NCBI GenBank assembly: GCA_030831585.1
Contig: JAURKV010000193.1
Location: 1-42,234 of the forward strand
Origin: Ramlibacter sp.
Lineage (GTDB): Bacteria > Pseudomonadota > Gammaproteobacteria > Burkholderiales > Burkholderiaceae_C
Reading direction: 5' to 3'
Length of the DNA stretch: 42,234 nt
The notes under the pieces were generated by a model. It was given only the letters and a program-made list of their open reading frames with translations. It was not told the origin of the DNA and searched no databases. Below are positions 1 through 41,552 of the stretch, piece after piece. The position numbers were made by a program, and so were the translations under genes. How positions within the stretch are numbered: the stretch's first letter is position 1; every line of letters begins with the position of its first letter.

Positions 1-128
1 CACGCCAGATCGCCAACCGGGCCCTGCACGAGATGCAGGACAAGGGCATTGTCCGTATTGGCTACGGCAGCATCGAGGTGCTCGATTTGCCGGCGCTCCA
101 GGCAATCGCTGCCGGGAACAACGAATAA
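1..128 (+). CDS. Crp/Fnr-type transcriptional regulator, C-terminal end only
   Basis: Only the last 41 complete codons are in the window (reading frame begins at base 3, stop TAA at 126-128). The translation (RQIANRALHEMQ, then IVRIGYGSIEVLDLPAL) resembles the recognition helix and wing of the winged helix-turn-helix of Crp/Fnr regulators, in which a TRE-x-VNRAL-like helix is followed by a short hairpin and an 'IEILD' strand. The gene converges on livF with only four bases between the stop codons. Its effector domain lies outside the window, so the signal cannot be told. It may regulate the neighbouring transport operon, but position is the only hint. Confidence 0.6.
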   Translation, partial: RQIANRALHEMQDKGIVRIGYGSIEVLDLPALQAIAAGNNE

Positions 129-18970: not shown

Positions 18971-19903
18971 TCAGCCCTTTCTACTATTGAACCCGCCAAC
19001 CGCGCTTCGGCGTCGGCCCCGCCCCTTGGCAAAGCCACGCATCCGCTCGATCAGCACGTCCAATCCCGGCGGCCTGCGCTCGGCCTTCCAGGCAAAGTAC
19101 CAGTGCCGGTCCGCCGGCCGCTTGTCGACTGGCACAAACGCCAGACCGGCAATGCCGGCATCGGCCAGCGACTGCGGCAGCAGGCTGACCCCGAGGCCGC
19201 GGGCCACCAGACGCGCCGCGCTCAGGGCATGGTCGGGTTCGCACACCACCTGGGGGTGAAAACCGGCCTGGGCACAGAACCCCATCAGCTGGTCGTAGGT
19301 GACCGGCGCACGGTCCCGGGCCAGAAAGACGAAGGGCTCGCTGCGCAGCTCCTCGGCCCTCAGCGTTCGCCTTGTGGCGAGGCGGTGCCCCGCAGGCAGA
19401 CAGGCCACGAAGCGGTCAGCCAGCAGGGGGATGTACGCCAGCCCCTGGGGCGGCTGCGGCAGGCTCAGCAGGCCAGCGTCGAGCCGCCCAGCGGCCAGCA
19501 TCTCGACCTGTTTTTGCGAGGTGACCTCGCGCATGTGAATTTCGATCGCCGGGTGCTCCTGTCGGCAGCGCAAGATCACCGCGTCGAGTCCGGGAGAAAA
19601 CAGAATGCCCGAGAAGCCGATCTCGACGCGCCCGGTGCGCCCTTCGGCCAGGGCGTTGGACAGGTCTCGCGTGCGCTCGACCTGATTGAGCACCTCTCGG
19701 GTGTAGCGCAGCATCAATTCCCCCACAGGGGTAATGCGCACCGTGCGCGTGTCGCGGTCGAACAGGCGTACCCCGAACACCTCCTCCAGCTTCTGCAGGC
19801 TGGCACTGAGCGCCGGCTGCGAGATGAACAGGCGCTGGGCGGCGCGCCCGAAATGCATCTCCTGCGCGAGGACATCGAACTGCTTCAGTTGCTTGAGTTC
19901 CAT
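18971..19903 (-). CDS. LysR-family transcriptional regulator
   Basis: 310 aa from ATG 19903. The ORF-track extension to a TTG at 19942 adds 13 residues that do not belong to the LysR domain. The helix-turn-helix is MELKQLKQFDVLAQEMHFGRAAQRL then ISQPALSASLQKLE. The effector domain follows, with GRVEIGFSGILFSPGLD. High G+C and codon choice match the genes to its right, not the cassette on its left. It is divergent from the carboxymuconolactone-decarboxylase-like gene across 116 bp containing a 7-bp inverted repeat, so it probably activates that operon. Confidence 0.92.
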   Translation of the reverse strand: MELKQLKQFDVLAQEMHFGRAAQRLFISQPALSASLQKLEEVFGVRLFDRDTRTVRITPVGELMLRYTREVLNQVERTRDLSNALAEGRTGRVEIGFSGILFSPGLDAVILRCRQEHPAIEIHMREVTSQKQVEMLAAGRLDAGLLSLPQPPQGLAYIPLLADRFVACLPAGHRLATRRTLRAEELRSEPFVFLARDRAPVTYDQLMGFCAQAGFHPQVVCEPDHALSAARLVARGLGVSLLPQSLADAGIAGLAFVPVDKRPADRHWYFAWKAERRPPGLDVLIERMRGFAKGRGRRRSAVGGFNSRKG

Positions 19904-24768: not shown

Positions 24769-25569
24769 CTACTTCCAGGCCTCCTGCACGAAGTCGCACA
24801 TCACGTCGAGCACGGCTACCACCATCGCGTCGCCGTCGGCGGTGCGGCATCCGGCGGCCCGCGCCGCCTTGATCAGTTCGGTCTCGCCGTGACCAGCCAC
24901 CACATCGCCGACAAACATGCGGGCCGTCAGCCGGGCCGGGTCGAGCGGCAGGGGGTCGCCCTCGGCCATACCCATGGGCGTGGCATTGCTGACCACGTCA
25001 AACCCGGTCGGATCGCCTGAGCCGACGTGCACCCGCGCCCCGGCCTTGGGTTGCAGCATGGCGACCAGTTTCTGGGCCCGCGCCGTGTCAACATCGTGCA
25101 CCGCCACCTCGGCCGCGCCGGCCTCGAGCATCGAGATAACGATGGCGCTGCCCGCACCGCCGGCGCCCAAGACCAGCACCCGTGCACCCTGAATGGTCGC
25201 GCCGTTGTCGATCTGCGCCTTGACGAAGGCATCGCCGTCAGTCGTGTGGCCATGCCAAGAGCCGTCCTTGTTGCGGCGGATGGCGGCAACGACCCCCAGC
25301 ATGCGTGAGGTCTCGGAGACCGTGGCGCAGTAGGCATAGCCGGCTGTCTTGTGAGGCATCGTCAGGCTAAAGCCGTCGACGTTGCGGGTGGCGGCCAGGC
25401 CGGCGATCACGGTTTCCAGCGCGCCCTCGGGCACCTCGAGCGGCAGCGAGATCATGTTCATTCCGCGCTTGGCCATGTGCTTGCTGAGCCAGTCCGGCGA
25501 GCGCGCATAGATGATGGGGTCGCCGAGAAGCGGATAAAGCCGGGTACGGCCGTTGAGATTGACGGTCAT
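24769..25569 (-). CDS. Shikimate dehydrogenase-like oxidoreductase
   Basis: 266 aa, the AroE/YdiB fold. The substrate domain begins RLYPLLGDPIIYARSPDWLSKHM, where AroE usually has G-x-P-x2-HSxSP. The catalytic Lys is in FSLTMPHKTAGY, the nucleotide motif is VLGAGGAGSAI, and the C-terminal part has SNATPMGMAEGDPLP. The altered first motif and the catabolic setting suggest a peripheral quinate/shikimate-type or other enzyme, not the housekeeping AroE. It lies 30 bp downstream of the F420-type oxidoreductase gene, so the two are likely co-transcribed. Confidence 0.88.
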   Translation of the reverse strand: MTVNLNGRTRLYPLLGDPIIYARSPDWLSKHMAKRGMNMISLPLEVPEGALETVIAGLAATRNVDGFSLTMPHKTAGYAYCATVSETSRMLGVVAAIRRNKDGSWHGHTTDGDAFVKAQIDNGATIQGARVLVLGAGGAGSAIVISMLEAGAAEVAVHDVDTARAQKLVAMLQPKAGARVHVGSGDPTGFDVVSNATPMGMAEGDPLPLDPARLTARMFVGDVVAGHGETELIKAARAAGCRTADGDAMVVAVLDVMCDFVQEAWK

Positions 25570-30197: not shown

Positions 30198-30209
30198 TGA
30201 CGGGCTTCA

Positions 30210-30220
30210 TGCAGGATGCA
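30210..30220. promoter_or_regulatory. Candidate operator TGCAGGATGCA
   Basis: It differs in one base from the palindrome TGCATGATGCA at 26334-26344. Both lie 12-23 bp upstream of a leftward gene, and both are followed or preceded by ATGCAGGAT. The closeness to the start codon suggests repression of the MFS gene. Confidence 0.4.
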
Positions 30221-30295
30221 TTATCAAACCTATCCGACAGTTCGGCCTTCAGCCGGAGCTTCCGCCCAGGACAGCCCGCCACATCACTGCGCCAA

Positions 30296-30326
30296 AGTAC
30301 GGAACATCTGCCGGCCATCGCTTGCG
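30296..30326 (+). promoter_or_regulatory. Composite element AGTACGGAACA-N15-TTGCG, site 1 (aldehyde dehydrogenase)
   Basis: AGTACGGAACA at 30296-30306, then 15 bases, then TTGCG at 30322-30326. The 11-mer is identical in four control regions of the window and oriented with transcription in each. This is the only one whose second box is not TTGAC, and the start codon is farthest away here (ATG 30425). Confidence 0.7.
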
Positions 30327-30424
30327 GGTCTGGCCGGACCATGGACCAATCGGGTAGCCGCCCGGGGTCGATCGCGTGCACCCGCCTCGGCCCCATCGCC
30401 CCATCGCACACAAGAAGTACCGCC

Positions 30425-31900
30425 ATGACCACCGCACGTGCCATCACTCTCGACCACCCGAACGCCCTCTACATCGGTGGGCAGTGGGTGGCACCCGCGT
30501 CCCCCGGCCACTTCGACGTTCTCGACTGCAGCACCGAGCAGGTGGTAGCCCGAGTGGCCCGCGCCGAATCCGCCGACGCAGCGCGCGCAGTGGCCGCGGC
30601 CCGCCAAGCCTTTGACCAAGGCCCATGGCCCCGTCTTTCGCCGCAGGAGCGCGGCGTCTGGCTGGACAAACTCGCAGTGAAGCTCGAAGCACTCAACGAC
30701 GAGTTTGCACGTATCTGGTCGCTGGAATCGGGCATTGTCTACAAGGTCGCCAAGCCGCGCCTGGGACTGTTCATCGGCGCGGCCTTCCGCCAATACGCCG
30801 CCCTGGCAAACACCTTCCCCTTCACCGAGCCGCGCAAGGCGGTGACCGGTCATCAGGCCTACTGCGTGCGCGAGCCAGTCGGTGTGGTACTGGCCATCGT
30901 GCCCTGGAACGGACCGGCAGGCCTGCTGGCCTACAAGGTGGCGCCAGCGCTGCTGGCGGGCTGCCCGGTGATCATCAAGTGCTCGCCCGAGGCCCCCTGC
31001 TCGGGCTACCTTTTTGCCCAGGCCTGCGAGGCGATCGGCCTGCCGCCGGGCGTGGTCAACGTGATCACCGCCGACCGGGACGTTTCAGAAGAACTGGTGC
31101 GCCACCCGGGGGTGGACAAGATCACCTTCACCGGCTCCACCGCGGCGGGGCGCAAGATCTCGGCCGCCGCATCCGAGCGGGTCGCCCGGGTCACGCTCGA
31201 ACTCGGTGGCAAGTCGCCCGCCCTCGTGCTGGACGACTACGACGTCACCGCCGCCGCGCAGGTGATCGGCGGAGGCTTCTTCGGCTACCTTTCGGGCCAG
31301 GTCTGTCACAGCCTGACCCGCATCCTGGTGCCGCGCGCCAAGCAGGCGGCCATGGTCGACGCGCTCAAGGCAGTGGCTGCCAAAATGGTGTTGGGCGATC
31401 CCTTCGACGAGGCCACTACCACTGGCCCACTGGCCAATGCCCGGCAGCGCGAGACGGTGGAGCGCTACGTGGCGCGCGGTCTCGCGGAAGGGGCCGAGCT
31501 CGCCTGTGGCGGCCGGCGTCCACCGCAAATGGTGGCGGGGTTTTTCTACGAGCCTACCGTCTTCTTCAACGTGGACAACCGCTCGACCATCGCGCAGGAG
31601 GAGATTTTCGGGCCGGTGCTGTGCGTGATCCCCTACGACAGCCTCGAGCAGGCGATCGAGATGGCCAACGACACCATCTTCGGTCTCAACGCCGCAGTCT
31701 TCACCCACGACACGGCCCAGGCACTGTCGGTGGCCCGCCGCATCCGCGCTGGCTCGGTCGGCCACAACGCCTCGCGAACCGACTTTTCCATCGGCTTTGG
31801 CGGCTTCAAGCAATCGGGCATTGGCCGTGAAGGTGGCGAGGAAGGGCTGATGGCCTTCCTTGAGTCCAAAACCATCGTGGTCGACGCGCCCCACCCCTGA
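30425..31900 (+). CDS. NAD(P)-dependent aldehyde dehydrogenase
   Basis: 491 aa, standard ALDH length. I use ATG 30425 because the protein then opens in the usual way (NALYIGGQWVAPASPGHFDV). Substrate and cofactor motifs are IVPWNGPAGLLAYKVAPALLAG and FTGSTAAGRKI, the general base Glu is in TLELGGKSPALV, and the catalytic Cys is in GYLSGQVCHSLTR. It would oxidise an aldehyde to the acid that the acyl-CoA synthetase at 36.1 kb could activate. Its upstream region carries the composite element shared with the MmgE/PrpD, MaoC and acyl-CoA dehydrogenase genes, which ties it to the same pathway. Aldehyde identity unknown. Confidence 0.94.
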   Translation: MTTARAITLDHPNALYIGGQWVAPASPGHFDVLDCSTEQVVARVARAESADAARAVAAARQAFDQGPWPRLSPQERGVWLDKLAVKLEALNDEFARIWSLESGIVYKVAKPRLGLFIGAAFRQYAALANTFPFTEPRKAVTGHQAYCVREPVGVVLAIVPWNGPAGLLAYKVAPALLAGCPVIIKCSPEAPCSGYLFAQACEAIGLPPGVVNVITADRDVSEELVRHPGVDKITFTGSTAAGRKISAAASERVARVTLELGGKSPALVLDDYDVTAAAQVIGGGFFGYLSGQVCHSLTRILVPRAKQAAMVDALKAVAAKMVLGDPFDEATTTGPLANARQRETVERYVARGLAEGAELACGGRRPPQMVAGFFYEPTVFFNVDNRSTIAQEEIFGPVLCVIPYDSLEQAIEMANDTIFGLNAAVFTHDTAQALSVARRIRAGSVGHNASRTDFSIGFGGFKQSGIGREGGEEGLMAFLESKTIVVDAPHP

Positions 31901-31921
31901 GCCTGCTGGTTCGGGGCGGCG

Positions 31922-31963
31922 CGTACTTTCAGAGTACGGAACAAAGCAGCGCCTTAGGTTGAC
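31922..31963 (+). promoter_or_regulatory. Composite element AGTACGGAACA-N15-TTGAC, site 2 (MmgE/PrpD)
   Basis: AGTACGGAACA at 31933-31943, 15 bases, TTGAC at 31959-31963. Here a true inverted repeat adjoins it: CGTACT (31922-31927), five bases, AGTACG (31933-31938). The start codon (ATG 31986 or 31995) follows closely. Confidence 0.72.
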
Positions 31964-31985
31964 CGTCCTGAGCGGGGCGCTGACC

Positions 31986-33422
31986 ATGACGACCATGCCA
32001 TCGACCCTCGTCCAGCAATTAGCCCATTTCACCGAGCAGACCGCCTTTGCCGACCTGCCGCCCGAGGTGGTCCGCGAGTGCAAACGCCTCCTGCTCGATT
32101 CCATCGGCTGCGCGGTCGCCGCCACCGAGGAGATGAAGGGGCGCGCCGGCATCCTCTACGGCCAGCAGCTGGCCGCCGTGGGGCCGCAGGCCACCATATT
32201 CGGCACCGCGCACCGGGTATCGCCGCTGGGCGCGGCCTATGCCAATGGTGAATTGATTAACACCCTGGACATGGACGCGGTACTGCCGCCGGGCCATGTA
32301 TCGCCCTACGTGCTGCCCGGCGCCGTGGCAGTAGCGGAGTCGCTGGGCGCCAGCGGCCGGCGACTGATCGAGGCCGTGGCGCTGTCCCACGAGATGTCCA
32401 ACCGTATCGGCAAGGCGATGGACTATCTGCGCGACACCAAGGACGGCAAGGTCAATCCGCCCAAAATCTTCGGTTACTCCAGTACCGTGTTCGGCGCTAC
32501 CGCCGCAATCGGCAAGGTCAAGGGTTTCAGCGCCGCGACACTGGCTGACGCACTGGGCATTGCCGGCTGCGTGGCCCCAGTGAACTCGCAGGTCGCGTGG
32601 TTCCAGCACGCGCCGAGTTCGACCATCAAGTATCTTCACGCGGGCGTGCTGGTGCAGTCGGCCTTCACATCGGCGCTGATGGCTGAATTCGGCCACCGCG
32701 GCGACGTGCAGGTACTCGACGATCGCGAGTACGGCTTCCCGCGCTTCATCGGGACGGTGAAGTGGGAGCCCGAGCACATCACCTCCGGGCTTGGCCAGGA
32801 GTGGCGCTTTCCGGCCGAGGCCTCCTACAAACCCTACCCGCACTGCCGCATCCTGCACGCGCTGCTGGACGTGCTCGGTGAAATCATCGACACCCACCGC
32901 ATCCGGCCCGACGAGATCGACGGCATCAAAGTCTACGTCGAAGGCATGGTCGAACAACCGGTTTGGCTCAACCGCCGGATCGAGCATGTGCATGACGCCC
33001 AATTCAGCATCGCCCACGGCATTGCCCTGGGCGCGCACCGGGTGCCGGCAGGCAAGGCCTGGATGGACCCGGCGCTGGTGTTCGGCGAGTCGGTCATGGG
33101 CCTGATGGACAGGGTCACCCACGAGGTCCACCCCGACTACGTGAAGCTGCTCACCTCCCAGGGCGCCAGCCGCCCGGCCAAGCTGGAGCTGCGCGCGCGC
33201 GGCCAGACCTTTGTCGGCGAGAAGCGCTTCCCCAAAGGCAGCCCCTCGCCCGACCCCGACACCGCGCTGACCGACGACGAGCTGATCGCCAAGTTCCGGC
33301 ACAACGCCGAGGGCGTACTGACCTCTGCCCAGGCCGACCAGCTGGTCGAGATGACCATGAACCTGGAGCGCGTGGACAACGTGGCCGATCTGGTGAGGCA
33401 GGCCGCGCGCGTTCCGGCCTGA
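31986..33422 (+). CDS. MmgE/PrpD family protein (first copy)
   Basis: 478 aa from ATG 31986; ATG 31995 is an alternative. The all-helical N-terminal domain includes VVRECKRLLLDSIGCAVAA and GAAYANGELINTLDMDAV, and the C-terminal domain SYKPYPHCRILHALLDVL and then SIAHGIALG, as in 2-methylcitrate dehydratase PrpD. Relatives dehydrate, decarboxylate or epimerise tri- and dicarboxylic acids, so the reaction is open. A close paralogue is transcribed leftwards at the right edge of the window, on the far side of the acyl-CoA genes. The upstream composite element links it to those genes. A Bug-type gene remnant follows directly after its stop. Confidence 0.92.
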   Translation: MTTMPSTLVQQLAHFTEQTAFADLPPEVVRECKRLLLDSIGCAVAATEEMKGRAGILYGQQLAAVGPQATIFGTAHRVSPLGAAYANGELINTLDMDAVLPPGHVSPYVLPGAVAVAESLGASGRRLIEAVALSHEMSNRIGKAMDYLRDTKDGKVNPPKIFGYSSTVFGATAAIGKVKGFSAATLADALGIAGCVAPVNSQVAWFQHAPSSTIKYLHAGVLVQSAFTSALMAEFGHRGDVQVLDDREYGFPRFIGTVKWEPEHITSGLGQEWRFPAEASYKPYPHCRILHALLDVLGEIIDTHRIRPDEIDGIKVYVEGMVEQPVWLNRRIEHVHDAQFSIAHGIALGAHRVPAGKAWMDPALVFGESVMGLMDRVTHEVHPDYVKLLTSQGASRPAKLELRARGQTFVGEKRFPKGSPSPDPDTALTDDELIAKFRHNAEGVLTSAQADQLVEMTMNLERVDNVADLVRQAARVPA

Positions 33423-33423
33423 C

Positions 33424-33600
33424 GCAGTCACACGCCTCAAGGTTGCCGGCCAGCGCCAGCTGCCTCCCATGGCCAACATTCCCACCACCGCCGAGGCCGG
33501 CTTGCCAGGCTTTACCGTCCAGCCCTGGTTAGGGATCTACATGTCCGGTAAGACCCCAGCGGCCCTGCAGCGCCAGGTGATCGATGCGGTGGCCCCCTTT
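33424..33600 (+). pseudogene. Bug/TctC solute-binding protein remnant
   Basis: In the frame of the 68-codon ORF at 33469, and continuing upstream of its Met, the translation gives VTRLKVAGQRQLPPMANIPT and then TAEAGLPGFTVQPWLGIYMS. This is the C-terminal third of a Bug receptor (compare DVPTLAELGLTGYDV in the intact gene at 26547). The homology starts within a few codons of the MmgE/PrpD stop and ends near VIDAV, after which the frame runs into unrelated sequence. Both ends are therefore missing. Bug genes often accompany MmgE/PrpD genes, so this may be the relic of the partner once encoded here. Confidence 0.7.
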
Positions 33601-33652
33601 TGGCCCCCTTGGCCCGCGTCACCGGCTAACGACCGCTGCGTGACGCGCCGCG

Positions 33653-34432
33653 CTAGACCGATCGCTTGGAGGTAATGCCGCCGTCGACAGTAAAGATGGC
33701 GCCGCTGCTGTAGGCCGAGCGGTCCGAGGCGAGGTAGACGAAAAGGTCAGCCACCTCGGGCACGGTGGCGGGCCGACCCAGCGGGTACTTGGCCATCAAC
33801 TCGCCGAAGCGCTCGGCGTCTCCCAGCAGCTTTGCCGCGTGGCCGCGCATCACCTTGACGATACGGTCGGTGGCCACCGGCCCGGCGTTGACGCCCACGA
33901 CACGGATGCCATCTTCCAGGCTGCGCCCGCCCAGAGCTCGGGTGAACGCCATCAAGGCGGCGTTGCCAGTGGAGCCAGCGATGTAGTTGAAGTCTGGGTT
34001 CTCGCCGCCGTTGCCAATGTTGTTCAGGATGACTCCAGCGCCACGCGCCTTCATCGCGGGGTACATGGCTCGGCACAGGTTGATATAGCCAAAGACCTTG
34101 AGCTCCCAGCCTTCGCGCCAGCGGGTCTCGTCCACTTCCCAGAGCGTGCCGCCCGGAATGCTCCCGGCGTTGTTGACGAGAACATCCACATGTCCCCCGA
34201 AAGCCATGACCTGGTCAATTGAGCCTGGCGCGGTAATGTCCAGCGGCAGCAGGTGCACTGGCACACCGTGGGCTTGGCGAATGGCGTCGGCCACCGCGCC
34301 GAGCTTGTCCGCCGAGCGAGCCACGAGGTACAGCTCGCAGCCTTCCGCGGCAAAGGCCTCGGCCAGGCCGGCACCGATGCCCTGCGAGGCACCGGTGATC
34401 AGAATCTTCTTTGCACGTAGCCCAAGTTCCAT
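33653..34432 (-). CDS. SDR-family protein with altered catalytic residues
   Basis: 259 aa classical-length short-chain dehydrogenase. The cofactor motif ITGASQGIGAGLAEAF and the VLVNNAG motif are intact, and the end VDGGITSKRSV is normal. The active site is not. Where the catalytic Ser is expected the sequence is LNNIGNGGEN, and the YxxxK region reads NYIAGSTGNAALMAF, so Tyr is present but the Lys is replaced by Ser or Asn depending on the alignment. It may bind NAD(P) yet use another mechanism or another reaction. It is the last gene after the two IclR genes (73 bp gap) and could supply the 3-hydroxyacyl-CoA oxidation step that is otherwise missing from the set. Confidence 0.87.
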   Translation of the reverse strand: MELGLRAKKILITGASQGIGAGLAEAFAAEGCELYLVARSADKLGAVADAIRQAHGVPVHLLPLDITAPGSIDQVMAFGGHVDVLVNNAGSIPGGTLWEVDETRWREGWELKVFGYINLCRAMYPAMKARGAGVILNNIGNGGENPDFNYIAGSTGNAALMAFTRALGGRSLEDGIRVVGVNAGPVATDRIVKVMRGHAAKLLGDAERFGELMAKYPLGRPATVPEVADLFVYLASDRSAYSSGAIFTVDGGITSKRSV

Positions 34433-34505
34433 GAGAGGTCTCCTGTGTGTCGAAAGGGGTGAACGGACGCGCCGTGATGACGCAGGCCACCATCGGTCGT
34501 CACGT

Positions 34506-35306
34506 TCATGGCTGCCCGTCGATATCAGCGACCAGGGCCTCGAAGCGTGCCGCGGTCTCCATCAGAACCGGCGCCATGCGCTTGCGCTCGGCGGCCAGGT
34601 TCGGGCCGATGGCCGCCTTGCCGCAGCTCAGGGCCATAGGCAGTTGCTGACGGCCCACACGCACAGGCAGGGCGACAGCGTAGGCGTCTCGCTGATATCC
34701 GCCTAGGACCGCACAGGTGCCAGTGGTGGCCAGTTCGTCGAAGCTGCTCTGAATCCCCGCCTCCAGCCGCGGCCATTGGGGCCCCAAGCCGCGCCGCAGA
34801 GTGCCCAGCAGGCGCTGGCGCTCTGGCACCGCTAGGCCCCAGAGATAGGCGCGCCCGATGGCGGTGCTGGCCATGGGCAGTACCGACCCCAGGCCCAGCC
34901 GCAAGGTGGCCACATGGTGACTCACGCGATAGGCGACATACAGCATGTCCAGGCCGTCACGAACGCCGAGCGCCACCGAGACACCGAGGCGATCGGCCAA
35001 GGTCTGCAACAAGGGCGCGGCACGATCCAGCAGCTCGCTCGAGGCGACGAAGGCGTGGCCCATGCCCAGTGCAGCCGCGCCCAGTTCAAACTGCCGCCCT
35101 CCGGCCGCCAGGCGAAGGTAGCCAAGCTGAACCAGGGTACTGGTCAAGCGCGAGACCGTGGCCTTGGACAGGCCGGTGCGCCGGACCAGTTCGGCGTTGC
35201 TCACAGGTGAGCGGTCCGATCGGAAGGCGCGCAGCACCTGAATGCCACGCTCGACGGTTTGCAGGCTGCCGGTGCTCGGGGCGGCTGGCGCCTGTGGCGC
35301 GTTCAT
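34506..35306 (-). CDS. IclR-family transcriptional regulator (second of tandem pair)
   Basis: 266 aa from ATG 35306, which overlaps the stop of the upstream IclR gene (ATGA). ATG 35315 is possible but has no spaced ribosome site. The N-terminal winged helix is LQTVERGIQVLRAFRSDRSPVSNAELVRRTGLSKATVSRLTSTL in consecutive pieces, and the C-terminal IclR effector domain has MASTAIGRAYLWGL and SFDELATTGTCAVLGGYQRDAYAVALPV. The two IclR genes are translationally coupled and follow the acyl-CoA synthetase gene in one operon. This makes one or both the prime candidates for the regulator that reads the AGTACGGAACA elements. Confidence 0.92.
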   Translation of the reverse strand: MNAPQAPAAPSTGSLQTVERGIQVLRAFRSDRSPVSNAELVRRTGLSKATVSRLTSTLVQLGYLRLAAGGRQFELGAAALGMGHAFVASSELLDRAAPLLQTLADRLGVSVALGVRDGLDMLYVAYRVSHHVATLRLGLGSVLPMASTAIGRAYLWGLAVPERQRLLGTLRRGLGPQWPRLEAGIQSSFDELATTGTCAVLGGYQRDAYAVALPVRVGRQQLPMALSCGKAAIGPNLAAERKRMAPVLMETAARFEALVADIDGQP

Positions 35307-36127
35307 GCCAGGCATCCCGCTTGAATTTGTGCGGCGAGCGCCAGCAGCCGCGGGCCCAGTTCACGGTCAACGCGGGCACGGGCCAACTGCTGGCTGGCAC
35401 CGACACAGGCCAACACCATGGGCGCATGCCCCTCGACCTGCAGGGGCGCAGCGAGCATGGCGATTTCTGGATTGCCATCGCCGGGTGTCGTACACCAGCC
35501 AGTCTGATAGACCTGGGCCACCGCCTCGCTACAGCGCCGGCGGATGCGAGCCCAGTCACGCGGCATGCGCCGCTGAACTCCGTCCAGCAGGTAGTAACGC
35601 TCCAGTTCCGGCAAGGCCGCCAGCAGGGCCCAGCCCAAAACCGAGGTCGCAATGCCCATGCGGACACCAGCGTGCAAATCGATATCGATCGGTGACAGCG
35701 GGCTGCTGGCGCTTTCAAGCACGATCACATCCAGGCGGTCGCGGCTCCCGAGCAGGACATGCAGGCGATGCTCGTGGGCAAACCCACGCATCGCACTGCG
35801 CGCCACGCGCTGCGCGTCGGCATTGAAGATAGCCCCGTAGCCCAGAGCAAGAACAGCAGCAGCCAGGCGGTAGTGACGCTGCGCGGGATCGTGGACCAGC
35901 AGCTCGAGCTGCACCAGCGTGCGCGTGATCCGCGCCACCGTCGAGGGTGGAAGGCCAGTGCGCTCGGCCAGCTCACGATTACCAAGCCAGCGCTCCTGCG
36001 GACTGAAAACTCCCAGCAGCTCCAGGGCGCGGGCAAAGGGCACGACCATCGCGCTGCCACCCGACGCCCCAACACGCCCGGGCCGCGATGCGGCGGCGGG
36101 CGGTGCGGAGGGCGAGGTAGCGGGCAT
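35303..36127 (-). CDS. IclR-family transcriptional regulator (first of tandem pair)
   Basis: 274 aa from ATG 36127, 13 bp after the acyl-CoA synthetase stop. The ORF-track start at 36205 lies inside that gene. A flexible Ala/Pro/Ser-rich stretch of about 25 residues leads into the winged helix (VVPFARALELLGVFSPQERWLGNRELAERTGLPPSTVARITRTL in consecutive pieces). The effector domain ends with GDGNPEIAMLAAPLQVEGHAPMVLACVGAS. Its effector domain is clearly diverged from its neighbour's, so the pair may sense different ligands or form mixed dimers. Confidence 0.91.
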   Translation of the reverse strand: MPATSPSAPPAAASRPGRVGASGGSAMVVPFARALELLGVFSPQERWLGNRELAERTGLPPSTVARITRTLVQLELLVHDPAQRHYRLAAAVLALGYGAIFNADAQRVARSAMRGFAHEHRLHVLLGSRDRLDVIVLESASSPLSPIDIDLHAGVRMGIATSVLGWALLAALPELERYYLLDGVQRRMPRDWARIRRRCSEAVAQVYQTGWCTTPGDGNPEIAMLAAPLQVEGHAPMVLACVGASQQLARARVDRELGPRLLALAAQIQAGCLA

Positions 36128-36140
36128 GGCGCGCTCGCTT

Positions 36141-38096
36141 TCAGTGGGGGGCGTGCGCCCGGATTTCATCCAACGCCGACGGGTTGTCCAGCGAAGACAG
36201 ATCACCGGGCGGTGCGCCGGTGTAGACGCTGCGAATCACACGTCGCATGATTTTGGAACTGCGGGTCTTGGGCAGCTGCGTCACGGCGTGAACCGCAGCC
36301 GGGCGGAAGGGCCGGCCGAGCTTGTCGGCCACCCGCTGCGCGACCTCGGCCAGCAGCGCATCGCCGGCCACATGCCCAGGGCTTGGCACCACGAAGACCA
36401 CCAGCTTCTGGCCCTTCTCGGCGTCGTGCACGCCGATGGCGGCGGCCTCGGCCACGGCCGACATTTCCAGCGCCAACTCCTCAACCTCGGCCGGCCCCAA
36501 ACGCTTGCCAGCCACCTTGAGGGTGTCGTCCGAGCGGCCCATGATGAAGAAGTCACCACCTTCCGTCCGCAAGGCAAGGTCGCCATGCACCCACAGGCCA
36601 GGCAGGGTGCGCCAGTATGTTTCGAGGTAGCGCTCGTCGTCCTGCCAGAAGGACTGGGTCATGCCGATGTAGGCGCCGCGGATCGCCAACTCACCGACCT
36701 CGCCGGTCACCGACTCCCCCTGAGCGTTGACCACATCGACATCGACCCCCGGGGAGATGGTGTTGAAGCCGGCCGGCGGGATGGGCCGGATCGGCACGCT
36801 GGCCAGCAAGCCGCCCGAGGCCTCGGTGCCGCCGGTGTAGTTCATGAGCGGGTGCTCGCCGCCGCCAAAACGGCGCTGGAACCAAGCAAAGTGCTCAGGG
36901 TCAATGGCTTCGCCCGCGGTGACCAGCAGCCGTACGCTGCTACGGTCACCCGCCAGCGCCTGGGCCTCGTGCGCCGCCATCCCGCGGATCAGGGTGGGCG
37001 CCGAGCCGAAATGGGTGATGCGGTGCCGCTCGACGAGGCGGGACATACGGGACCAGTCGGGGAAATCCGGCGCGCCGTCGTAGCACACCAACGTGGCGCC
37101 TCGCATGAGCGAGGAGCACATCACCAAGCTGCCGGCGATCCAGCCCATGTCGGCTGGCCAGCAAAAGCGGTCGCCAGGCTGAATGTCGAAATGCACCAGG
37201 GCATCGTGTGCGATCTTGACCGGGAAGCTGCCATGCGTGTGCACCACGCCCTTGGGCTTGCCGGTGGTGCCGGAGGTGTAGATCACCATGAAGGGGTCGT
37301 TCGGGTCCATGGCCAGCGGCGCGCGTCCGCGCCCGGCGCCCGCGCGTGCGACCGCCAGCCAGTCGCTGTTGAACGGGTCTGCTTCGGCATCGGCTGCGGG
37401 CGATGCATCCGGGTCACCCTTCCACACCACCCGCTTGACCGAAGGCAGCCTCTTCAGCGCATCGCGCATCGGGGCTTGGACATCAATACGGCGGCCCCGC
37501 CGCCAAAAGCCGGTGGTGGCCAGTACCACGCTGGCCTCGGCCGCAGCGAGGCGAGAGACGATCGCATCGGCGCCGAAGCCGCTGAACAGGGGCACCACAA
37601 TGGCGCCGAGACTGGCCACCGCCATGAAGGAGATGCTGGCCTCGACCCCGTTTTCCATCAGCAGCCCCACGCGGTCACCGGGGCCCACGCCCAGGTTGGC
37701 CAGGCCGGCGGCGAAGGCGCGTACCCGGGGCCCGAGCTCGGACCAAGCCACGGTCTTAACGCTGCCGTCTTCCCGCTCAGCGAGGATGGCCGGTTGGCCG
37801 GCGGTGACCGGGCGATCAGCCCAGGCCAGGATGGTGTCGACCCAGTTGAGGCGCCCGCCTGGAAACCAGCGCGGGAAGGCTGGGCCACGTGTGTCGTCTA
37901 GGTAAGCAGCGGGTGGCGTGGTCCACTGGACCTCGCAATGCGCCATCACCGCGCGCCAGTAGTGTTCAGGCTTGCGCAGCGCCAGGGCCTGCAGGTCTTC
38001 GTAGCGGGCCGTGCCCAGGCGGGCCATTAACTGCGCAATGCCAGACTGCGTGAGGTGCCGCTCACGCGGGTGCCAGGTGTCGGATGCGTGGCTCAC
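36141..38096 (-). CDS. AMP-dependent acyl-CoA synthetase (acetyl/acetoacetyl-CoA synthetase-like)
   Basis: 651 aa from GTG 38096, which lies directly after the thiolase TGA, with GAGAGGG eight bases upstream. The ACAS-type N-terminal segment (HYWRAVMAHCEVQWTTPPA and FPRWFPGGRLNWVD) precedes the ANL core. The core has the P-loop VIYTSGTTGKPKGVVHTHGS, MNYTGGTEASGG, and WVHGDLALRTEGGDFFIMGRSDDTLKVAGKRLGP in consecutive pieces. The C-terminal LPKTRSSKIMRRVIR holds the catalytic Lys. It forms an acyl-CoA from a short to medium acid and would be the entry step of the pathway encoded around it. The acid cannot be told from sequence. Confidence 0.92.
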   Translation of the reverse strand: MSHASDTWHPRERHLTQSGIAQLMARLGTARYEDLQALALRKPEHYWRAVMAHCEVQWTTPPAAYLDDTRGPAFPRWFPGGRLNWVDTILAWADRPVTAGQPAILAEREDGSVKTVAWSELGPRVRAFAAGLANLGVGPGDRVGLLMENGVEASISFMAVASLGAIVVPLFSGFGADAIVSRLAAAEASVVLATTGFWRRGRRIDVQAPMRDALKRLPSVKRVVWKGDPDASPAADAEADPFNSDWLAVARAGAGRGRAPLAMDPNDPFMVIYTSGTTGKPKGVVHTHGSFPVKIAHDALVHFDIQPGDRFCWPADMGWIAGSLVMCSSLMRGATLVCYDGAPDFPDWSRMSRLVERHRITHFGSAPTLIRGMAAHEAQALAGDRSSVRLLVTAGEAIDPEHFAWFQRRFGGGEHPLMNYTGGTEASGGLLASVPIRPIPPAGFNTISPGVDVDVVNAQGESVTGEVGELAIRGAYIGMTQSFWQDDERYLETYWRTLPGLWVHGDLALRTEGGDFFIMGRSDDTLKVAGKRLGPAEVEELALEMSAVAEAAAIGVHDAEKGQKLVVFVVPSPGHVAGDALLAEVAQRVADKLGRPFRPAAVHAVTQLPKTRSSKIMRRVIRSVYTGAPPGDLSSLDNPSALDEIRAHAPH

Positions 38097-38098
38097 AC

Positions 38099-39304
38099 TC
38101 AGGCCCTCTCGAAAATCGCGGCGACACCCTGGCCGCCGCCGATGCACATGGTCTCGAGCCCGTAACGACCCTTGCGCCGTTGCAACTCGTGCAGCAAGGT
38201 AGCCAGGATGCGCGCGCCGGTAGCGCCGACCGGGTGGCCCAGTGAGATGCCCGAGCCGTTAACGTTGAGCCGGTCCTCCAGGGCGTCCATCGACAGACCC
38301 CAGCCCTTGACGCAGGCCAGCACCTGGCAGGCAAAGGCCTCGTTCAACTCGATCAGGTCCATCTGGTCCAGGCGCAGCCCGGTGCGGGCCAGCACCTTGT
38401 GCACGGCGGGCACCGGGCCGATGCCCATGTGCGAGGGCTCGCAGCCGGCCGCGGCCCAGCCGACCAGCCAAGCACTGGGCTCGAGGCCGAGTTCGGCCAG
38501 CTTATCTTCGGCCACCACCAGGCAGGCGGCGGCGGCATCGTTCTGCTGGCAGGCGTTACCCGCGGTGACGATACCGTCCTTCATCACCGCGCGCAATTTG
38601 GCCATGGCCTCGCGGCTGGCGTCGGCGCGAACGCCCTCGTCACGATCAACCACCAGGGCGTCGCCCTTGCGCTGCGGCACTGAGACCGGGACGATCTCGC
38701 TGGCGAACCGCCCCTGCTCCCAGGCGGCCGCCGCACGCTGGTGGCTGCGGGCGGCGTAAGCGTCGGCCGCCTCGCGCGAGATGGCGTAGTCGCGGGCGAG
38801 GTTCTCAGCGGTTTCGATCATGCCGCTGATGCGGCCAAAGCGGCCCTCCGGCTGCGAGCGCTCGCGACCGCGGTCGAGGCGGTCATGCATCGTGACCGAG
38901 CCGGCGCGGCTGCCCCAGCGCATGCCGGTGGTGTAGTACTCCACATTGCTCATGCTCTCGACGCCTCCGGCCATGACCACATCGGCCGCACCGGTCTGCA
39001 CCATCATCGCGGCGGTGGCAATGGCCTGCAGGCCACCGCCGCAGCGGCGATCGAGCTGCATGCCCGCGACCTCGATCGGAAAGCCCGCCTGCAGCGCCAC
39101 CCAGCGGCCGGTGCAGGGTGTCTCGCCGTTGGTGTAGCTTTGGGCAAAGACGACATCGTCAATACGGGCCGGATCCAGCCCGGTTCGCTGGACGATGGCA
39201 CGGGCCACGGTGGCACCAAGCTCCTCGACCGGCACCGGGCGCAAGGCCCCACCAAAGGCGCCAACCGGCGTTCGCAGGGGGGAAACGATGGCAGCTCTTT
39301 TCAT
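38099..39304 (-). CDS. Thiolase (acetyl-CoA C-acyltransferase family)
   Basis: 401 aa from ATG 39304, which overlaps the MaoC gene stop (ATGA). The nucleophile Cys lies in GMQLDRRCGGGLQAI, the two His regions are NEAFACQVLACVKG (where the N-E-A-F box stands) and NGSGISLGHPVGATGARI, and the second Cys is in MCIGGGQGVAAIFER. All residues needed for thiolytic cleavage of a 3-oxoacyl-CoA are present. The variant GETPCTGRWVALQAG replaces the usual GQNPARQAAL-type segment, suggesting a substrate other than simple fatty acyl chains. Second gene of the leftward MaoC operon. Confidence 0.93.
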   Translation of the reverse strand: MKRAAIVSPLRTPVGAFGGALRPVPVEELGATVARAIVQRTGLDPARIDDVVFAQSYTNGETPCTGRWVALQAGFPIEVAGMQLDRRCGGGLQAIATAAMMVQTGAADVVMAGGVESMSNVEYYTTGMRWGSRAGSVTMHDRLDRGRERSQPEGRFGRISGMIETAENLARDYAISREAADAYAARSHQRAAAAWEQGRFASEIVPVSVPQRKGDALVVDRDEGVRADASREAMAKLRAVMKDGIVTAGNACQQNDAAAACLVVAEDKLAELGLEPSAWLVGWAAAGCEPSHMGIGPVPAVHKVLARTGLRLDQMDLIELNEAFACQVLACVKGWGLSMDALEDRLNVNGSGISLGHPVGATGARILATLLHELQRRKGRYGLETMCIGGGQGVAAIFERA

Positions 39305-40212
39305 GCGCGATTCCTTCGGGGATTTGATGAGGGGCGCAGGTCGACGCGCCCGTGATTGAGGACCACCGCGCCGCGCTCGAGGGCGGTAGTGCGCAGCGAC
39401 ACCTGGTCGCCGTCTACCCACAGCTCGGTGCGCAGGGTGTCGCCCGGCAAGGCCGGCGCGGTAAAGCGCACACGCATCGCGGCAAAGCGCGATGCGTCGT
39501 AGTCAAGCAGCGCACGCATCACCGCGTGAGCGGCAATCCCCATGGTGGCGAGGCCGTGCAGGATAGGGCGGGAAAAGCCCGCGCGGGCTGCCACCGCCGG
39601 ATCGGCGTGCAGCGGATTGAGGTCACCGCAGAGGCGGTACAAGAGCGCCGCCTGCGGCGAAGTGGCCAGGTCGCAGACCGCGTCGGGCGCGCGCTCGGGG
39701 ATGGGGTGCGGCGGCGGCGGGCTGCCTTCGGACGCGCCGGGACCCAGGCCACCATCGCCGCGCAGGAAATTGAGCTGACGCACGGTGGCAATCAGCTTCC
39801 CTGAGGTCACGTCGCGGATCTCGCGAACCTGCTGCAAAAAGGCGCCACGACCCTCGCCTCGGTCCCACAGCGCGGTCACCCGGGTGTGGCCGGTGGCATG
39901 ACCTGTTGCCGGGATCGGGGTGTGCAAAGTCAGTTCATGCTCGGCATGGACCACCTGCTCCCAGGCAATGCCGGTGTCGGGCTCGCGCGCCCAGAAGCCG
40001 GGGTAAGCCAGCACATTGGCCAGGGTCGGCATGGCGACTAGCGTATCGCCGGTCAGGCCCTCGTAGACATATCGCAAAGGCCCGGGGTCGAGCGGGTCAC
40101 TGCCCAGGCCCAGGGAGAGCGCATAGAACTGGGTGTCGCGCGCGGTCCAGGCGTGCTCGATCGTGGGAAAAGCCCGCTGTAGCAGGCGTGGTGGGTCGAT
40201 TCGGCTGGGCAT
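39301..40212 (-). CDS. MaoC-like bi-domain enoyl-CoA hydratase
   Basis: 303 aa with two hot-dog domains. The N-terminal one (about residues 10-150) resembles the MaoC_dehydrat_N half, with MPTLANVLAYPGFW and VVHAEHELTLHTPIP. The C-terminal one carries the hydratase-2 motif LYRLCGDLNPLHADPAVAARAGF, with Asp and His at the right spacing, followed by PILHGLATMG. It should hydrate a 2-enoyl-CoA, the second step of beta-oxidation, with the (R)-stereochemistry usual for this type. It is the first gene of the leftward operon with thiolase, synthetase and two IclR genes. Its promoter region shares the composite element, in inverted orientation, with the divergent acyl-CoA dehydrogenase. Confidence 0.9.
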   Translation of the reverse strand: MPSRIDPPRLLQRAFPTIEHAWTARDTQFYALSLGLGSDPLDPGPLRYVYEGLTGDTLVAMPTLANVLAYPGFWAREPDTGIAWEQVVHAEHELTLHTPIPATGHATGHTRVTALWDRGEGRGAFLQQVREIRDVTSGKLIATVRQLNFLRGDGGLGPGASEGSPPPPHPIPERAPDAVCDLATSPQAALLYRLCGDLNPLHADPAVAARAGFSRPILHGLATMGIAAHAVMRALLDYDASRFAAMRVRFTAPALPGDTLRTELWVDGDQVSLRTTALERGAVVLNHGRVDLRPSSNPRRNRA

Positions 40213-40247
40213 TGCGAAACAAACGATACGGCCCCGGCCTGTTCGGG

Positions 40248-40278
40248 GTCAACCGGTGTCACCCTGATGTTCCGTACT
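40248..40278 (-). promoter_or_regulatory. Composite element AGTACGGAACA-N15-TTGAC, site 3 (MaoC operon)
   Basis: Read on the minus strand: AGTACGGAACA at 40278-40268, 15 bases, TTGAC at 40252-40248, then 35 bases to ATG 40212. A degenerate left half (ATTCTGAA before G-TACGGAAC) makes it a partial dyad. It mirrors site 4 on the other strand of the same gap. Confidence 0.72.
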
Positions 40279-40338
40279 TCAGAATCAGCATCCGCGGGCG
40301 GTGGCGATGCCCTTTGCGACTTCGCGGCCAGATCCCAC

Positions 40339-40369
40339 AGTACGGAACAGAGACGCGCCCTGGCTTGAC
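40339..40369 (+). promoter_or_regulatory. Composite element AGTACGGAACA-N15-TTGAC, site 4 (acyl-CoA dehydrogenase)
   Basis: AGTACGGAACA at 40339-40349, 15 bases, TTGAC at 40365-40369, then 31 bases to ATG 40401. The spacer shares GCGCC with that of site 2. The facing copy 60 bp to the left serves the divergent MaoC operon, so one regulator could control both directions. Confidence 0.72.
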
Positions 40370-40400
40370 GGGCCCAAGGGTTCGCCCCGAACATGACGCC

Positions 40401-41552
40401 ATGATCAGAGACCGCGAAACCCTGGACCTGCTGCTGCAGAACATCGCCCGATTCGTCCGCGAGCGCCTCGTGCCCCATGAAGAGCTGGTCGCCGAGACCG
40501 ACGAGATTCCCCCCGAACTGGTGGACGAAATGCGGCAGATGGGCCTGTTCGGCCTCTCAGTGCCGGAGGCGTATGGGGGGCTGGAGCTGACGATGGAGGA
40601 GGAGGCCCTGGCCGTGCTGGAGTTATGTCGCACCTCGCCGGCGTTTCGCTCCATCATCGGCACCACGGTGGGCATCGGCTCCCAGGGCATTGTCTTTGAC
40701 GGCACCGAGGAACAAAAGCGCCGCTACTTGCCGGGCATGGCCACTGGCGAGATCATCGCCTCCTTCGCGCTGACCGAGCCTGAGTCCGGCTCGGACGCAG
40801 CTTCCCTGCGCACCACCGCCATCCGCGACGGCGACCACTATGTGGTCAACGGCACCAAGCGCTACATCACCAACGCGCCGCATGCGGGCGTGTTCACCCT
40901 CATGGCGCGGACCAATCCGCAGGACAAGGGCGCCTCGGGCATCTCGGCCTTCATCGTCGACGCCAAGAGCCCGGGCATCAGCTTCGGCCGGCGGGACAAG
41001 AAGATGGGCCAGCGCGGCGCGCATACCTGCGACGTCATTTTCGAGAACTGCCGGGTGCCAGCCGAGAACCTGATCGGCGGAAAGGAGGGCGTGGGCTTCA
41101 AGACCGCGATGAAGGTGCTGGACAAGGGCCGTATCCACATTGCCGCAGTCTGCGTGGGCGTGGCCGAGCGCATGCTGGCCGACGCGCTTCGCTACGCGAT
41201 GGAGCGCAAGCAGTTCGGCCAGCGCATTGGCGACTTCCAGCTTGTGCAGGCGCTGCTGGCCGACAGCAAGGCTGAGATCTACGCGGCCCGCAGCATGATG
41301 ATCGACGCCGCCCGTCGGCGTGACGAGGGCCTGCCCCACACCACCGAGGCCTCCTGCGCCAAGATGTTCGCCTCCGAGATGTGCGGCCGGGTCGCAGACC
41401 GCGCGGTGCAGGTTTTCGGAGGGGCCGGCTACATGAGCGAATACGGCATCGAGCGCTTTTACCGCGACGTGCGCCTGTTCCGCATCTACGAGGGCACGAC
41501 CCAGATCCAGCAGATTTTGATCGCGCGCAACATGATGCGGGAAGCGGCCTGA
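40401..41552 (+). CDS. Acyl-CoA dehydrogenase
   Basis: 383 aa from ATG 40401. The ORF-track frame runs further upstream only because no stop intervenes. The FAD-binding and substrate signature reads ASFALTEPESGSDAASLRTTA, with RYITNAPHAGVFTLMART after it. The C-terminal helical domain has RKQFGQRIGDFQLVQALLAD and ends RIYEGTTQIQQILIARNMM, where the family's second signature lies. It makes the alpha,beta double bond of an acyl-CoA and passes electrons to ETF. It is divergent from the MaoC-thiolase-synthetase operon and shares its control element, so together they supply steps one, two and four of a beta-oxidation round. Confidence 0.94.
   Translation: MIRDRETLDLLLQNIARFVRERLVPHEELVAETDEIPPELVDEMRQMGLFGLSVPEAYGGLELTMEEEALAVLELCRTSPAFRSIIGTTVGIGSQGIVFDGTEEQKRRYLPGMATGEIIASFALTEPESGSDAASLRTTAIRDGDHYVVNGTKRYITNAPHAGVFTLMARTNPQDKGASGISAFIVDAKSPGISFGRRDKKMGQRGAHTCDVIFENCRVPAENLIGGKEGVGFKTAMKVLDKGRIHIAAVCVGVAERMLADALRYAMERKQFGQRIGDFQLVQALLADSKAEIYAARSMMIDAARRRDEGLPHTTEASCAKMFASEMCGRVADRAVQVFGGAGYMSEYGIERFYRDVRLFRIYEGTTQIQQILIARNMMREAA

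Follow-up and report, generated by a model that had tools for sequence, protein, structure and literature searches.

The operators of group-1 IclR-family regulators follow the motif consensus GKTYCRYW3-4RYGRAMC, the sites of PobR and PcaU belong to the same broad motif group, and the site of GenR from Corynebacterium glutamicum has the form ATTCC-N7(5)-GGAAT (Suvorova and Gelfand 2021, PMC8222616). We analyzed a 42,234-nucleotide stretch of DNA from Ramlibacter sp. (contig JAURKV010000193.1), here called the window, that carries two adjoining genes for IclR-family proteins, IclR1 and IclR2, and four copies of an element in which the 11-mer AGTACGGAACA is followed at a fixed distance by TTGAC or TTGCG. 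The element is probably a composite promoter, consisting of a group-1 IclR operator near -61 and a sigma-70 promoter, at which a bound IclR protein would activate a catabolic island in the class-I manner. An activator of class I sits near -61 of its promoter, as CRP does at -61.5. Text searches, which left most subscription literature uncovered, returned no paper that connects the half-sites GTTCCGTA and TACGGAAC with an IclR protein, and nothing useful turned up on two paired IclR regulators or on the positions of IclR activators.

Four copies of a composite element in the window

The exact 11-mer is found at 30296, 31933 and 40339 on the plus strand and at 40278-40268 on the minus strand. 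Each copy lies upstream of a gene and is oriented toward it, the genes being, in that order, those for an aldehyde dehydrogenase (ALDH), an MmgE/PrpD family protein (PrpD), an acyl-CoA dehydrogenase (ACAD), and a MaoC-thiolase-synthetase-IclR-IclR operon. The gap from the 11-mer to the downstream pentamer is exactly 15 bases at all four copies, with TTGCG at 30322 and TTGAC at 31959, 40365, and 40252 (minus strand). This arrangement, confined to control regions, is just as a preliminary description of the window had reported it. There is no fifth exact copy of the 11-mer in the window, where the next-best matches have two mismatches and lie at other places. Other species have either A or G at the last position of the 11-mer. 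The four sites are composed as follows.

30290..30304, plus strand: IclR-type operator dyad CGCC-N7-GGAA, with the core AGTACGGAACA at 30296-30306; ALDH promoter
30322..30350, plus strand: weak -35 TTGCG (30322-30326) and candidate -10 ACCAAT (30345-30350); ALDH promoter
31927..31941, plus strand: IclR-type operator dyad TTTC-N7-GGAA, with the core at 31933-31943; PrpD promoter
31959..31987, plus strand: -35 TTGAC (31959-31963) and -10 GACCAT (31982-31987), predicted start near 31994; PrpD promoter
40270..40284, minus strand: IclR-type operator dyad TTCT-N7-GGAA, with the core at 40278-40268; MaoC-operon promoter
40223..40252, minus strand: -35 TTGAC (40252-40248) and -10 TATCGT (40228-40223), predicted start near 40216; MaoC-operon promoter
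40333..40347, plus strand: IclR-type operator dyad TCCC-N7-GGAA, with the core at 40339-40349; ACAD promoter
40365..40394, plus strand: -35 TTGAC (40365-40369) and -10 GAACAT (40389-40394), predicted start at 40401, the ATG; ACAD promoter

The source genome, a draft assembly of 295 contigs, totals 3.54 Mb and is 81% complete. In it the exact 11-mer occurs five times, four of them within the window. A scan with GTACGGAAC-N16-TTGAC, in which the gap of 16 equals an offset of 15 after the 11-mer, likewise found five copies only, all upstream of genes, compared with about 0.02 expected from a rough composition estimate. The window holds three of them, and two further contigs hold one apiece. The copies outside the window precede a TctC receptor gene (contig C63) and a gene of the carboxymuconolactone-decarboxylase family (contig C196), and an additional site on C63, with one core mismatch, lies upstream of a second TctC gene. 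With a weight matrix made from other species only, the window sites ranked 1-4, with scores of 35.5, 35.4, 33.1, and 18.1, the ALDH site being the weakest; the next best place in the window scored -1.1, and the top score in 30 shuffled windows was 12.8. The whole-genome counts and the matrix trained without the window species rule out chance repetition of the element. In the relative L051 (93%), a direct match showed the core AGTACGGAACG, followed at spacing 15 by TTGCA, likewise upstream of the ALDH gene; when the two ALDH promoters were aligned, the two cores did not fall in register, owing to indels.

Spacing and anatomy of the element across species

Sequence around the loci of IclR1 orthologues was pooled (0.69 Mb) and searched for the core with at most one mismatch. 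Of the 41 TTGAC within -5..60 of the core, 36 stood at offset 15. In scans of whole genomes and plasmids, with the gap left free between 12 and 19, 40 of the 45 matches had N16 after GTACGGAAC and 3 had a gap of 15, and nearly all 45 were gathered in a single island of their genome or plasmid. Both in the islands and genome-wide, then, the site keeps the fixed phase upstream of a -35 that is characteristic of class-I activator sites.

A logo was drawn from the 36 sites, in the selection of which the left half, the base before TTGAC, and the -10 had played no part. It shows a dyad TTCC-N7-GGAA centered on the G of AGT, A or G before TTGAC, and the A and T peaks of a -10 hexamer. The left half reads T (61%), T (47%), C (72%), and C (89%), followed by a purine in 100% of the sites, and 25 bp separate the dyad center from the first T of TTGAC. 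Matches to TATAAT at N17/18 scored 118 versus 61.1 (sd 5.1) in shuffled sequence, a value that none of 2000 shuffles reached. The spacing from -35 to -10 peaks at N17/18, within the 16-18 bp of a sigma-70 promoter with TTGAC as its -35, and TTGACG-N17-TCTAAT of Pseudomonas citronellolis is a clear example. Several of the window -10 hexamers are weak, with 3 of 6 matches. When 30200-32050 was scanned for strict consensus promoters there was no hit, as would be expected of weak, activator-dependent hexamers. The preliminary description had left two readings of the element side by side; the enrichment of both the left half-site and the -10, neither of which was selected for, bears out the first of them, an IclR pseudo-palindrome followed by TTGAC as the -35.

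As a control for selection bias, each of the 932 TTGAC of the loci was taken as a starting point and the right half was scored at this spacing. The mismatches were bimodal, with 30, 4, and 2 sites having 0, 1, and 2 of them versus a chance mode of 7, so the near-invariance of the right half is not a product of selection. The left half matched on average 2.6 of 4 bases where the right half was perfect and about 0.9 elsewhere. When the divergent ACAD/MaoC promoter was aligned over six species, GTACGGAAC, GTTG, and ATCGT were among the columns that did not vary, as was, in part, GTTCCG on the other strand.

A predicted class-I IclR promoter

The distance from dyad to TTGAC and the -10 at N17/18 together put the dyad center near -61, and this position, along with the fit to the group-1 consensus, leads us to read the element as an IclR-activator site joined to a weak sigma-70 promoter. 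The center of the operator TTCC-N7-GGAA, with its right half GTACGGAAC nearly invariant, lies 25 bp upstream of the first T of the sigma-70 -35, a weak -10 follows 17-18 bp after TTGAC, and the center near -61 is counted from the predicted start. A co-encoded IclR protein, most likely IclR1, with or without IclR2, would bind to one fixed face of the DNA, sense a pathway intermediate as its presumed inducer, and recruit RNA polymerase to poor promoters as a class-I activator. The regulon would then be an acyl-CoA/beta-oxidation-like catabolic island of ALDH, PrpD, ACAD, and the MaoC-thiolase-ligase genes. As judged from the DNA, the fixed distance to the -35 and the weak -35 and -10 hexamers suggest an activator more than a repressor.

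IclR1 and IclR2 are IclR-family proteins, scoring 61.2 and 50.8 bits for HTH_IclR and 52.0 and 28.2 bits for IclR_C, respectively (Pfam cut-offs, 22 and 24). IclR1 is most likely the protein that binds. Fourteen orthologues, the most distant at about 49% identity, keep its recognition helix, KATVSRLT, almost intact, with T53, S55, R56, L57, T58, T60, and L61 invariant; the recognition helix of IclR2 varies among IclR2 proteins.

In the window, the starts predicted from these weak hexamers lie 0-4 nt from the start codons of ACAD (40401), PrpD (if its ATG is at 31995), and MaoC (40212), and the three mRNAs may be near-leaderless in this lineage. Orthologous leaders are 26, 26, 26, and 8 nt for MaoC and 28 and 29 nt for ACAD, and the alignment of the divergent promoter suggests that the leader was shortened in the window lineage. 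The objection raised earlier to TTGAC as a -35, that transcripts would start almost at the ATG, thus applies to the window lineage but not to the orthologues, and their longer leaders make the difficulty a local peculiarity.

Distribution of the element and the regulator pair

The scans covered 301 genomes of the family, named genomes, plasmids, and a sample of 399 genomes of the order. The exact element was found in only 5 of the 301 family genomes; G149 and G297 have several copies, clustered within about 50 kb, and G045 and G107 have a single copy each. An IclR1 orthologue is present in all three family genomes that have at least two copies, with 62-63% identity in G149 and G297. There are IclR1 orthologues in 14 other genomes or plasmids (Burkholderiales, Pseudomonas), nearly all with clusters of the same element. 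The named genomes are a Comamonadaceae metagenome-assembled genome (93%), Burkholderia sp. Ax-1719, Caballeronia pedi, Variovorax sp. KK3, Xylophilus sp. ASV27, Pseudomonas citronellolis, and Cupriavidus numazuensis, and the plasmids are those of Cupriavidus pinatubonensis, Cupriavidus sp. P-10, Burkholderia arboris, Paraburkholderia hospita, and B. pseudomultivorans. In the order sample, IclR1 is rare (2/399 genomes), one occurrence being new (G455). An IclR2-type gene stands near IclR1 at every locus, mostly directly adjacent, and MaoC, thiolase, synthetase, and ACAD are kept beside the regulators in several relatives at about 60-83% identity. Targets of the element elsewhere include TctC receptors, porins, and ETF. 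The loci represent about ten to fifteen independent lineages; several are on plasmids, and horizontal transfer is likely. That the copies define an unrecorded composite regulon, as first proposed from the window, is now supported by the genome scan, by the orthologous promoters of relatives, in which element and spacing are kept, and by the co-occurrence with the IclR pair.

Some loci deserve separate mention. L027, L028, and L052 each have two IclR2-type paralogues, one by IclR1 and one after the acyl-CoA synthetase gene, and the window and Variovorax KK3 have a single IclR2-type gene; these differences suggest that a member of the regulator set was duplicated or lost. On the B. pseudomultivorans plasmid (L065, 20013-20790) the IclR1 orthologue is split over two annotated open reading frames and is probably broken, with a composite element still at 25355. 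In Pseudomonas citronellolis (L056) the element precedes a gene for a periplasmic branched-chain-type binding protein (13504), another similar by sequence (889), and, at 19544, an FMO-like flavin monooxygenase gene, targets hinting at a ketone or alicyclic substrate. Caballeronia pedi had been considered as a counter-example on the basis of a 20 kb locus and was dropped as such, the genome scan giving four exact composites on one contig.

Alternative readings

Several observations weigh against IclR1-dependent activation. Some cores near the IclR pair have no TTGAC at offset 15, the window ALDH site has a poor -35, no exact composite was found in the scan of the Cupriavidus P-10 plasmid, and a repressor, too, can sit near -61. 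No IclR1 orthologue was found at E 1e-25 in G045 or G107, each with its one element copy. The lone copy of G045 (L031, 3232, minus strand, contig 77) is a complete composite, with the -10 CATCGT, upstream of an MmgE/PrpD gene. A different IclR protein may read the same site in these two genomes.

The asymmetry of the operator could have its counterpart in the regulators. An obligate IclR1-IclR2 hetero-oligomer is conceivable, if doubtful, with one protein, probably IclR1, on GTACGGAAC beside RNA polymerase and IclR2 on the degenerate TTCC. We know of no IclR hetero-oligomer system of such a kind; if it existed, it would drive near-leaderless mRNAs in the window lineage.

Alternatively, the same operator and sigma-70 promoter might serve a repressor or dual regulator that acts from -61 by looping or tetramer contact, for which the divergent ACAD/MaoC region, with two operators back to back about 63 bp apart, would be suited. 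We consider this unlikely, because the operators leave the -35 and -10 free, the interval between operator and -35 does not change from one promoter or species to another, the hexamers are weak at most promoters, and single, unpaired sites are common.

It is also very improbable that an unlinked, different regulator reads the site and that the IclR pair only happens to lie in the island. Such a regulator would explain the copies without IclR1 in G045 and G107, and IclR paralogues are numerous in each genome (G045 has 33 HTH_IclR matches), but the motif is the group-1 IclR motif, and IclR1, for all its rarity in the order, accompanies nearly every element cluster.

The other reading in the preliminary description, GGAAC-N16-TTGAC as the bipartite promoter of a group IV (extracytoplasmic function, ECF) sigma factor with GGAAC as -35 and TTGAC as -10, has in its favor that GGAAC is a common ECF -35 motif, that the spacing is fixed, and that leaders of 15-30 nt would result at three window sites, but it is scarcely credible and we treat it as ruled out by the dyad and the -10 at N17/18, since it predicts neither the left half TTCC nor the hexamer after TTGAC, both strongly enriched, TTGAC would be unusual as an ECF -10, and the element travels with IclR genes.

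Genes of the island

The window genes that the predicted IclR-dependent promoters would serve, and those of the two regulators, are the following.

30425..31900, plus strand: ALDH, target (PF00171)
31986..33422, plus strand: PrpD, target (PF03972/PF19305), start possibly ATG 31995
36141..40212, minus strand: MaoC operon, target, with MaoC dehydratase (39301-40212), thiolase (38099-39421), and acyl-CoA synthetase (36141-38147)
40401..41552, plus strand: ACAD, target (PF00441/PF02770/PF02771)
34506..35315, minus strand: IclR1 (P0001), IclR-family regulator (PF09339/PF01614)
35303..36205, minus strand: IclR2 (P0002), second IclR-family regulator, adjoining IclR1 (PF09339/PF01614)

The MaoC operon runs on into IclR2, IclR1, and, probably, a short-chain dehydrogenase/reductase gene (33653-34432). 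These gene assignments agree with the earlier ones, except that PrpD possibly starts at 31995 and not at 31986.

Comparison with described systems

The regulator pair, operator, and promoter of one regulon are here defined to base level and are conserved across two bacterial classes. With them, the targets of an uncharacterized acyl-CoA-type catabolic island can be annotated and its substrate can be sought; they offer a natural series of apparent class-I IclR promoters whose geometry is fixed, and a test case for whether two IclR proteins act jointly on an asymmetric operator.

Like CRP at class-I promoters, the operator has its center near -61 and a fixed phase with the -35, but the protein family is another one, and contact with RNA polymerase is, for our element, a prediction. 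Among the IclR activators PcaR, PcaU, and PobR, also catabolic regulators, the resemblance lies in TIGR02431, the best NCBI subfamily model for both window IclR proteins. At 116.0 bits (IclR1) and 63.8 bits (IclR2), both fall short of its cut-off of 284.75 and so outside that subfamily, and the window motif differs from TTGTCCGATSATCGGACAR of PobR. GenR shares the TTCC-N7-GGAA layout (PMC8222616) but belongs to a different phylum and regulon, and the passages on GenR do not describe a phasing with TTGAC. The closest fit is to the group-1 consensus (PMC8222616). The operator follows GKTYCRY-W3-RYGRAMC, with its right half matching fully: the half-site ACGGAAC and the 3-base center fit, and the left TTCC(A/G) mostly fits, whereas A stands in half the sites where Y is expected, and the outermost G is not kept. 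As in other group-1 systems (PMC8222616), catabolic target genes adjoin the regulator; unlike them, the element has an almost invariant right half, a loose left half, and a fixed interval to the -35. The regulon is new and of a known kind, and what distinguishes it is the asymmetric operator and the constant pair of regulators.
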